A stretch of 64,000 nt of DNA from Actinomycetes bacterium (GTDB lineage: Bacteria > Actinomycetota > Actinomycetes > S36-B12 > GCA-2699445), in contig JAHZLH010000019.1 in the NCBI GenBank assembly GCA_022599915.1, forward strand, positions 1-64,000, in the 5' to 3' direction. The first letter of the stretch is position 1. The number at the start of each line of letters is the position of its first letter. The notes under the pieces were generated by a model that saw only the letters and a list, made by a program, of their open reading frames with translations, was not told the origin of the DNA and did not search any database. Of the stretch, positions 1 through 38,676 are shown piece by piece. Both the position numbers and the translations under genes were made by a program.

Positions 1-76
1 GGCCCCCGCGAAGAAGGCCCCCGCGAAGAAGGCCCCCGCGAAGAAGGCCCCCGCGAAGAAGGCCCCCGCCAAGAAA
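1..76 (+). repeat. 15-bp tandem repeat encoding APAKK units
   Basis: Five consecutive copies of a 15-bp unit (gcccccgcgaagaag) fill positions 2-76. The last copy has two substitutions and the array continues past the left edge. It is in frame with the following zinc-finger protein and encodes alternating Ala-Pro-Ala-Lys-Lys, a histone-H1-like tail. Copy number may vary between strains because the units are almost identical at the DNA level. Confidence 0.9.
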
Positions 77-583
77 ACCTCGAGCGTCACGACACCAGCG
101 CAGACCTCGGTAGCTTCCACGCCACGAGTATCAGCAGACGTTACTCGCCCGAAGGCTGCGGTAAAGGTGGCTGGGACGGCATCGGCGTCGGTGCAACTGG
201 CAGTTCGAGAGGACGAAGACCCATGGACCGAAGCGGAACTCACCGAGATTCGCGAACAACTGAGCGAGGAATTAGACAATCTCAGCCTAGAGTTGGCCGC
301 GATGCGCCGAGAGTTGGACGAGCTGATGTCGGAAGTAGCTGACGCGGCGGGGGACGACCAGGCGGACACCGGCAGCAAGACGTATGAACGGGAACACGAG
401 ATGTCGTTGATGGCCAGCGTTACCGACATGCGGGAACAGGTGCAGCACGCGCTGACCATGGTGGACTCTGGTGAGTACGGTCGCTGCGAGTCCTGCGAGA
501 ACCCCATCGGCAAAGTCCGGTTGCAGGCTTTCCCGCGAGCCACGCTATGCCTGTCGTGCAAACAGAGGCAGGAACGCCGCTGA
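2..583 (+). CDS. DksA/TraR-family zinc-finger protein with Lys/Ala/Pro-rich N-terminal tail (5' partial)
   Basis: The reading frame is open from the left edge, so the start lies outside the window; a GTG at 167 is internal. The N-terminal part is a low-complexity (APAKK)n tail followed by a Ser/Thr-rich linker. Next comes a predicted coiled coil rich in Glu/Leu, then a C-terminal zinc finger CX2CX17CX2C (CESC...CLSC) typical of the DksA/TraR family. These proteins act on RNA polymerase through its secondary channel or bind it otherwise; the exact role of actinobacterial members with basic tails is not settled. The coiled coil lacks a DxxDxA tip that I can recognise, so classical ppGpp/DksA function is uncertain. 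The gene sits directly upstream of lspA, 15 nt away. Family assignment is firm, function is inferred. Confidence 0.85.
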   Translation, partial: APAKKAPAKKAPAKKAPAKKAPAKKTSSVTTPAQTSVASTPRVSADVTRPKAAVKVAGTASASVQLAVREDEDPWTEAELTEIREQLSEELDNLSLELAAMRRELDELMSEVADAAGDDQADTGSKTYEREHEMSLMASVTDMREQVQHALTMVDSGEYGRCESCENPIGKVRLQAFPRATLCLSCKQRQERR

Positions 584-36255: not shown

Positions 36256-36291
36256 GGCGCGTGGTCGCTTCAGTTGAAGTGACCACGCGCC
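36256..36291. terminator. Long bidirectional hairpin between pyk and bldD
   Basis: GGCGCGTGGTC (36256-36266) pairs perfectly with GACCACGCGCC (36281-36291); inside it a G-U pair and CTTCA/TGAAG extend the stem almost to the tip. It lies between convergent pyk and bldD, 8 nt after one stop and 13 nt from the other. It is the longest hairpin I found in the window and is a likely terminator for both genes. Confidence 0.75.
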
Positions 36292-36304: not shown

Positions 36305-36796
36305 CTACTCCTCGAGTGACTTGGGGGCATCAGCATTGAGTACTCCCCAAGCGACGAGCTCCTCGGCGAGTACCCCGGGAGTGGTGTCGTAGATGACTGC
36401 CAGCGTCCGCAAATCATCGGACCGAACGGTAAGCACCCGACCGTTGTAGTCACCCCGCTGCGCTTGGATCGCGGACAGGTAGCGGTTGAGCGGTCCCGAC
36501 TTGTCCGGCGGGACGTTAGCTAGTTTCTCGAGGTCCATGACTACCCGTGTGGGTGGCGCCTGCGAGGCACTCGCCGCACCACCTGGCAGGAGTACGCCTA
36601 CTGGCACGCCGTAGAAGTCGGCAAGTTGGGCCAGTTTGGCGACGGTCACTGCACGATCGCCACGTTCGTAGGAGCCGATTACGACGGCTTTCCAGACCCC
36701 GTCGGACTTCTCTTCGACTCCTTGCAGCGACAGCCCTTGCTGCTTTCTGATCGCTCGCAGTCGTCCGCCTAGCGCTCGTGCGTATTCCGTGGCCAT
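36305..36796 (-). CDS. bldD: BldD-like c-di-GMP-responsive transcriptional regulator
   Basis: A 163-residue regulator. The N-terminal helix-turn-helix (about residues 8-70) has GGRLRAIRKQQGLSLQGVEE and VIGSYERGDRAVTV, closely matching Streptomyces BldD. The C-terminal domain contains RGD, then 8 residues, then RSDD, corresponding to the c-di-GMP-binding RGD-X8-RxDD of BldD with Ser in place of Gln. ATG 36796 was chosen: it has AGGAGG upstream and matches the BldD start; the frame is open 24 codons further. BldD represses developmental genes when bound to c-di-GMP in Streptomyces; in this organism the regulon is unknown. It is divergent from pyrR, as in Streptomyces. Confidence 0.93.
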   Translation of the reverse strand: MATEYARALGGRLRAIRKQQGLSLQGVEEKSDGVWKAVVIGSYERGDRAVTVAKLAQLADFYGVPVGVLLPGGAASASQAPPTRVVMDLEKLANVPPDKSGPLNRYLSAIQAQRGDYNGRVLTVRSDDLRTLAVIYDTTPGVLAEELVAWGVLNADAPKSLEE

Positions 36797-36906
36797 CGCC
36801 GGTCCTCCTGGTTGTCGCGCACATCGCAGCAGCAGGTGATGTTTGCTGTGCTGAGCCCGTATCAGCATCTACGTTACGTAATCGACTCATCGCCAGCCAC
36901 CACGAT

Positions 36907-36926
36907 CTGTGAGATTTGAGTCACAG
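36907..36926. promoter_or_regulatory. Candidate BldD operator
   Basis: CTGTGA-N8-TCACAG is a perfect inverted repeat whose half-sites fit the AGTGA/TCACC-type BldD box. It lies 111 nt upstream of the bldD start, so it may mediate autoregulation as in Streptomyces, and could also affect the pyr operon. No binding evidence is available. Confidence 0.5.
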
Positions 36927-37110
36927 TAGCGCGGGATTTACGACGGATCGTGGCTAATTTGGCGAATTTTTGCTGAGTTTCATTTTTACGGAGGGTGACC
37001 GTACATTGTTGGATATCCGTCGATCGTGGCCGGAGACCGGCCGAATCATGCGCTGATGCCCGCCACGGTGACGGGCAAGTTGGCTGTTATCGTAAGGCAA
37101 CTGTCCTTTA

Positions 37111-37140
37111 ACCAGTCGTCCCGTGAGGCGGCGAAGGAGG
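37111..37140 (+). promoter_or_regulatory. PyrR-binding RNA hairpin overlapping the pyrR ribosome-binding site
   Basis: The sequence TCCCGTGAGG (37119-37128) fits the PyrR-loop consensus UCCnGnGAGG. Flanking GTCG (37115-37118) and CGGC (37129-37132) form the lower stem. AAGGAGG (37134-37140), the ribosome-binding site of pyrR, follows immediately. UMP-bound PyrR would stabilise the hairpin and hide the ribosome-binding site, the translational control known from mycobacteria. Confidence 0.8.
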
Positions 37141-37150
37141 TGGCATTGCG

Positions 37151-37726
37151 ATGCCCAGTGAAATTCGACCGGAACAGATTGCCGGTCCGGTAGTCCTCGA
37201 TGCTGATGATCTCAATCGGGCGCTTACCCGCATTTCCCACGAAATCATTGAATCCGCTCGCGGCGCGCGAGATTTGGTGGTCCTCGGGATTCCCACCCGA
37301 GGTGCCGTTCTGGCGCAGCGGCTAGCCGATCGCATCTCGGTTGCCGAAGGCGTACCGGTGCCATCCGGATCGGTGGACGTCACCATGTACCGCGATGACT
37401 TGAGTTTGCGTCCTGCCCGAGCGCTCGGCCAGACCGTCATCCCACCGCAGGGCATCGACGGCAAGACAGTCGTACTCGTCGACGATGTGCTGTTCTCCGG
37501 TCGAACCGTGCGCGCGGCACTAGACGCGTTGCATGACATCGGTCGACCCCGGATCGTGCGGCTTGCCGTCCTTGTAGATCGAGGGCACCGGGAGTTGCCC
37601 ATCCGCGCGGATCATGTCGGCAAGAACTTGCCCACGCATCGCGGCGAGAGCGTTCGCGTGCGGTTGTCAGAGATCGACGGCTTGGATGAGATTGTGCTCA
37701 TCCGCGAGGCGGAGGGCGTGCTGTGA
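37151..37726 (+). CDS. pyrR: PyrR: pyr operon RNA-binding regulator / uracil phosphoribosyltransferase
   Basis: A 191-residue PRTase-fold protein. [19 protein letters not shown] and the PRPP loop [22 protein letters not shown] near residue 112 are typical, as is [21 protein letters not shown] near residue 146. It binds the leader hairpin just upstream when UMP is high and lowers expression of the whole pyr operon; many homologues also have weak UPRTase activity. The ATG has AAGGAGG 10 nt upstream. It overlaps pyrB by 4 nt. Confidence 0.96.
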
Positions 37727-38676
37727 TCGAACATCTGCTCTCCACTGCCGACATCAATCGCGACGACGCAGTCCAGATCTTGGACACTGCGGCTGAGATG
37801 GGGAACCTCACCGACAGGTCAGTCAAGAAGTTGCCAGCGCTGCGTGGTCGAACTGTCGTCAATCTCTTCTTCGAGGACTCCACCCGAACCCGCATCTCGT
37901 TCGAAGCGGCAGCCAAACGGCTCTCGGCCGATGTCATCAACTTCAGCGCGAAAGGTTCCAGCGTTTCCAAGGGTGAGTCGTTAAAAGACACTGCCCTCAC
38001 GCTGCAGGCGATGGGTGCGGATGCCGTCGTGATCCGACACGGGGCCTCTGGAGCGCCGATGCGATTGGCCTCAGCAGGTTGGATTGACGGTGCGGTCATC
38101 AACGCTGGTGACGGTACCCACGAACATCCCACCCAGGCCTTGCTGGATGCCTACACCATGCGCCGTCACCTACGTGGCGGCCAGGGTGATCTGTCTGGTC
38201 TACGAGTTGCCATCGTCGGTGACATCCTGCATAGCCGGGTAGCGCGTTCCAACGCGTGGTTGCTGCACACCTTGGGAGCCGAGGTCACTCTGGTTGCCCC
38301 GCCTACGCTGATCCCGGTGGGCGCCGAAGCGTGGCCTGTGAAAGTCAACTACGACCTGGATGACGTTTTGCCGCACGTTGATGCGGTGATGATGTTGCGG
38401 GTGCAGGCCGAGCGAATGAAAGCGGACTTCTTCCCCAGCACCCGCGAATACAGCCGGCGGTACGGGCTGGATGCCGCTCGTGCCCGACTGCTACCGGAAA
38501 AGTCCATCATCTTGCACCCCGGACCGATGGTCCGCGGAATGGAGATCGGCGATGACATTGCTGACTCCGATCGGGCGGTGATCCTCGAGCAAGTGAGTAA
38601 TGGCGTGAGCGTGCGAATGGCGGTGCTCTACCTGCTGGTAGGCGGTGCCCGCGAGGGATCAGGAGTGGTGGCATGA
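37723..38676 (+). CDS. pyrB: Aspartate carbamoyltransferase catalytic subunit
   Basis: Second step of UMP synthesis, carbamoyl phosphate plus aspartate; 317 residues. [18 protein letters not shown] near residue 48 binds carbamoyl phosphate, with [13 protein letters not shown] near 88, [11 protein letters not shown] near 131 and [11 protein letters not shown] near 268. No pyrI regulatory subunit is present, as expected in actinobacteria. Both neighbours overlap by 4 nt. Confidence 0.97.

Follow-up and report, generated by a model that had tools for sequence, protein, structure and literature searches.

Gene arrangement at the bldD-pyrR locus

The DNA analysed here, a stretch of 64,000 nucleotides referred to as the window, carries bldD and pyrR back to back. 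An intergenic stretch of 354 bases separates the start of bldD (36796, minus strand) from that of pyrR (37151, plus strand), and pyrB follows pyrR. The identities of the three genes are established by curated models:

36305 to 36796, minus strand: bldD, helix-turn-helix and BldD-like C-terminal domain; above the NCBIfam BldD equivalog cut-off (NF050110, 267 bits against 250), PF21179 116 bits
37151 to 37726, plus strand: pyrR; PyrR equivalog model NF003547, 272 bits (cut-off 230)
37723 to 38676, plus strand: pyrB, aspartate carbamoyltransferase; NF002032, 402 bits (cut-off 263)

The bldD product matches solved chains such as 4oay, 5khd and 2ewt, which are annotated as DNA-binding proteins and correspond to BldD. 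Its translation contains RGD-YNGRVLTV-RSDD, the c-di-GMP signature RxD-X8-RxxD as defined in the excerpt of PMC7374567. Because BldD carries this signature and the window genome encodes 12 GGDEF domains, c-di-GMP signalling is plausible there. A near-perfect 17-bp hairpin (36256-36291) lies between the convergent ends of a pyruvate kinase gene and bldD and is perhaps a bidirectional terminator.

To compare relatives, 110 loci were fetched. tblastn located both bldD and pyrR in 58 of them, and the two are divergent in 57/58, a count that keeps near-identical loci (L005 and L031, for example, are the same locus). They lie 1.7 kb apart in L063. On these sequences the divergent order is old. The window's family consists of 8 genomes; bldD was found in 7, and the eighth genome is 81% complete. 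At the level of the order, true BldD (E below 1e-50) is present in 32/60 genomes, the window's included, and all 32 encode GGDEF domains. GGDEF domains are still present in 10 of the 28 order genomes that lack BldD (up to 30), and two families of the order, f5 and f6, lack BldD in almost every genome.

A BldD box upstream of bldD

A stock sigma-70 scan returned no promoter in 36700-37200. Candidate promoters and the best BldD site are as follows:

36871 to 36900, minus strand: putative bldD promoter, -35 GTGGCT (36900-36895), 18 nt, -10 TAACGT (36876-36871)
36979 to 37007, plus strand: possible pyrR promoter TTCATT-N17-TACATT, which ranked first in a simple scan (7/12 letters) and whose spacer contains the BldD box
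36985 to 36999, no strand assigned: BldD box TTTACGGAGGGTGAC, 8/9 defined positions of nTnACnC(A/T)GnGTnAn

The consensus score of the putative bldD promoter is weak, and TAnnGT occurs at the aligned place in 7/7 family loci (by eye). The possible pyrR promoter is weak and has no support from conservation.

The initial annotation had noted TACGG-N7-CCGTA, and these letters were confirmed at 36987-37003. Overlapping them is TTACGGAGGGTGA (36986-36998), the best BldD-box fit in the intergenic stretch. Compared with the consensus quoted in the excerpt of PMC7374567, TTACGGAGGGTGA has G for C at position 6; it is not letter-perfect and is recognised by profile. In a BldD profile of 36 sites from loci outside the window's family it scores 16.8, the next best site scores 4.8 and 0/200 simulations score as high, although the profile is not fully blind because its training sites were chosen by likeness to three 13-mers picked with the window box in view.

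BldD boxes matching at 8 or 9 of 9 positions were found in 27/57 loci compared with about 2.3 in shuffles, the loci being related. Relatives carry TTACGGAGCGTGA or TTACGGACAGTGA above bldD. The best sites of the other family loci have p values of 0.000 (L003), 0.045 (L004), 0.050 (L005), 0.040 (L006) and 0.030 (L030). By profile, no site reaches significance in L002, the sole congener that has the locus (top score 7.3, p 0.175). Since the best sites of the family differ in position, the BldD site appears to turn over. In the window 189 nt separate the strong box from the bldD ATG, and the box is about 110 nt above the putative -10; elsewhere in the order it mostly lies 30-75 nt from the ATG.

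TTACGNAGNGTGAC has one exact match in the genome, the window box itself. With one mismatch it has 3 matches versus 10 in the control, and TNACNSWSNGTGAC has 3 versus 13 in a backward control. These counts give no hint that the window genome has a large regulon marked by this strict form of the box. Elsewhere, a one-mismatch BldD-like box, TTACGACGGGTGAC, is found at about 1501-1514 of locus L142, between divergent Lrp/AsnC-like and aldehyde-dehydrogenase-like ORFs (named by eye).

A conserved TCACA element above the putative bldD promoter

A second feature lies between the BldD box and the putative bldD promoter:

36907 to 36926, no strand assigned: inverted repeat CTGTGA-N8-TCACAG, conserved part TCACA at 36921-36925

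The repeat is perfect, as initially annotated. The window contains 407 perfect repeats with 6-nt arms and gaps of 3-15, and 4 of them fall between bldD and pyrR, so the palindrome by itself is unremarkable. A genome-wide search for the 20-mer pattern gave a single exact match and, with at most one mismatch, 4 places in all versus 2 in the control.

The 7 family loci were aligned by anchoring on the conserved TAnnGT (bldD -10-like). TCACA is found 49-52 nt above the putative bldD -10 in 7/7 loci and is the sole 5-mer so shared. A 5-mer common to all 7 at a fixed offset arose in 0/500 shuffles, which overstate the conservation because the family loci are related. Even so, L001 and L002, which are congeners, already differ strongly in flanking sequence. 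The left arm fared less well: GTGA is at the matching place in 3/7 loci (L001, L002 and L003, with arm gaps of 8, 8 and 10 nt). Phylogenetic footprinting bears out half of the repeat. TCACA is not general outside the family, where it lies within 250 bp in 7/23 other loci of the order and 4/28 other actinobacterial loci (shuffle expectations 2.6 and 4.3, respectively).

The repeat had been interpreted as a pair of BldD half-sites. The best profile match overlapping 36907-36926 scores 4.8 (p 0.32), and the half-site order of the repeat is opposite to that of a BldD box. In that form the palindrome was ruled out by the profile; it is retained as a partly conserved element, its right arm kept throughout the family. 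Two other candidates were rejected. The CRP consensus is TGTGA-N6-TCACA, and the spacing at 36907-36926 is 8, not 6. GACAC is the core of WhiA sites, and neither GACAC nor GTGTC is present in the window's bldD-pyrR region. Since the TCACA arm is kept at a fixed spacing family-wide, the repeat is probably part of some operator, which BldD or another protein would recognise.

A PyrR-type hairpin above pyrR

The initial annotation overlooked a hairpin in front of pyrR:

37104 to 37140, plus strand: PyrR RNA-binding hairpin, in which UCCUUU pairs with AAGGA of the Shine-Dalgarno sequence AAGGAGG; upper stem-loop around GUCCCGUGAGGC

Its letters read UCCUUUAA...GUCCCGUGAGGC....AAGGAGG, and the GUCCnGnGAGGC loop of PyrR RNA elements is present above pyrR. 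The core GTCCnGnGAGG occurs in 105/106 distinct pyrR loci, L079 being the exception. The strict full pattern with both arms occurs in 69/106, and most of the others vary at outer arm letters. Among 94 distinct elements, pairs -1/12 and -2/13 (core positions) are kept in all 94, with compensatory changes from C-G to T-A in 7 and from C-G to T-G, A-T or G-C in 4. Pair -3/14 is kept in only 48/94, so the stem is not continuous at this point. Both the fold of 37100-37155 and the lower-stem letters across loci pair the lower stem with the ribosome-binding site; L032 is without this pairing to the Shine-Dalgarno sequence. The two congeners, L001 and L002, have near-identical hairpins, whereas the rest of the stretch has diverged.

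Rfam at its gathering threshold gave no match in the window. RF00515, whose model also spans downstream hairpins unmatched here, scores 26.2 bits, below the 54-bit gathering cut-off. The folding energy of the hairpin stretch is by itself unremarkable (z -0.41). In L032 (= L116) two tandem PyrR-type loops, GTCCAGTGAGGC and GTCCGGTGAGGC, lie 8 nt apart just above pyrR, and bldD is about 3.3 kb from pyrR in that genome.

A repeated octamer

Three copies of GATCGTGG within 130 bp, from which a second, unidentified regulator had been proposed, were confirmed by letter:

36900 to 36907, minus strand: GATCGTGG copy 1, abutting the putative bldD -35; judged coincidental
36946 to 36953, plus strand: GATCGTGG copy 2; judged coincidental
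37022 to 37029, plus strand: GATCGTGG copy 3; judged coincidental

The octamer is common, with 328 copies in the 2.44-Mb genome, and this genome-wide preference accounts for its excess in the window (15 versus 3.9 in shuffles). A 463-kb sample, consisting of the window and 20 further stretches, was used to examine its placement; the simple gene call covers 90% of the bases. 67/73 copies are in genes, and the 6 outside compare with 7.5 expected, so there is no intergenic bias. In the same sample 92/1989 octamers of similar abundance (40-90 copies) also form at least one triple within 130 bp. Among 57 loci scanned, GATCGTGG is found between bldD and pyrR only in the window, L020 and L063; it was not found in the other family loci, congener L002 included.

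The clustering does have something in its favor. Across the whole window 14 octamers form triples within 130 bp, where 30 simulations averaged 1.0 (between 0 and 3), and the GATCGTGG triple is one of 4 independent triples. A single short repeat at window positions 1-130 supplies 11 of the 14 octamers (at least 3 copies each). GATCGTGG is a frequent octamer without intergenic bias, the outcome that the initial annotation had named as refuting, and it is unconserved; the argument for a regulator bound to its three copies fails, and such a protein is very improbable. The triple looks like a coincidence. GATCGTGG was dropped as a regulator site on the genomic count, the absence from the family, the split between genes and intergenic DNA and the triple statistics, and this lead can be abandoned.

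Discussion

BldD autoregulates its own gene in Streptomyces. The window resembles that system in having a BldD orthologue with the c-di-GMP signature, a divergent pyrR and a box upstream of bldD. It differs in the 189-nt distance from box to ATG, in a host outside Streptomyces and in one defined position of the box (C6 = G), as in many relatives in the order. Fields and Switzer reportedly described PyrR-dependent translational repression in Mycobacterium smegmatis in 2007. The window hairpin would fit this mode of control, as the PyrR loop again lies just above pyrR and pairs with the ribosome-binding site; no difference was found at the level of sequence.

The Streptomyces region is under several regulators. 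According to PMC5839063, functional ARG boxes precede both bldD and pyrR in Streptomyces coelicolor, and in PMC3781837 pyrR/bldD is among the WhiA targets listed from ChIP in S. venezuelae. The divergent region is shared with these species, whereas no ArgR or WhiA site is established in the window region.

We consider it probable that this is an ordinary divergent region in which bldD is under BldD/c-di-GMP autoregulation and the pyr operon is under PyrR acting on RNA. c-di-GMP would dimerise BldD, which would bind TTACGGAGGGTGA (36986-36998) and so repress bldD transcription; it may also occupy weaker half-sites, among them the TCACA at 36921-36925, above the bldD -35. On the other side, pyrR mRNA would fold the hairpin, with UCCUUU paired to the Shine-Dalgarno sequence, and UMP-bound PyrR would stabilise this fold, so that translation would cease for pyrR and, through coupling, for the pyr operon. 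Autoregulation of bldD, suggested in the initial annotation, is supported by the sequence; the strong box that speaks for it is the TACGG-N7-CCGTA feature, not the CTGTGA/TCACAG repeat. Both modes of control are of known kinds, and, TCACA aside, no evidence needs a new regulator. Counting against this reading are the unusual distance of the strong box from bldD, the lack of a significant box in L002, the incomplete blindness of the profile and the ordinary folding energy of the hairpin stretch.

Alternatively, some other protein than BldD could recognise the TCACA element, either an activator or an input of the ArgR or WhiA type, the inverted second arm being present in some genomes only. This reading is a serious but less favored one. 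The unique sharing of this 5-mer at a fixed offset in the family agrees with it, as does the orientation of GTGA-N8-TCAC, opposite to the TnAC-N5-GTnA of BldD boxes. TCACAG is also contained in CGCTGCGTAACCTCACAGTG, which PMC5839063 gives as the ARG box of bldD in S. coelicolor; by eye this ARG box matches the final ten positions of the BldD box. On the other hand, TCAC also serves as a half-site of BldD, three loci (L004, L005 and L006) have a GT half after TCAC at BldD-box spacing (by eye), and both WhiA core orientations are missing from the region.

An effect of BldD on the pyr genes is possible. The box fits between TTCATT and TACATT, and in L004 a box lies 152 nt from the start of the pyrR alignment (which begins at residue 6), as in the window, with a score of 9.5 (p 0.045). 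Repression of pyrR transcription by BldD/c-di-GMP from a box between -35 and -10 is nevertheless unlikely, as the pyrR promoter is a guess, congener L002 is without a strong box and elsewhere in the order the box is nearer bldD than pyrR. Still less likely is the combination of an extra family-specific operator, the invariant TCACA about 50 nt above the bldD -10, with repression of the pyr operon by BldD/c-di-GMP acting at the box within the possible pyrR promoter; if true, it would tie second-messenger signalling to pyrimidine supply.

Under the preferred reading, autoregulated bldD beside PyrR-controlled pyr genes, BldD-type boxes and PyrR leader control would persist in an actinobacterial lineage outside Streptomyces. 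The TCACA element is a concrete, testable place at which bldD seems to have gained or retained an input in this family.
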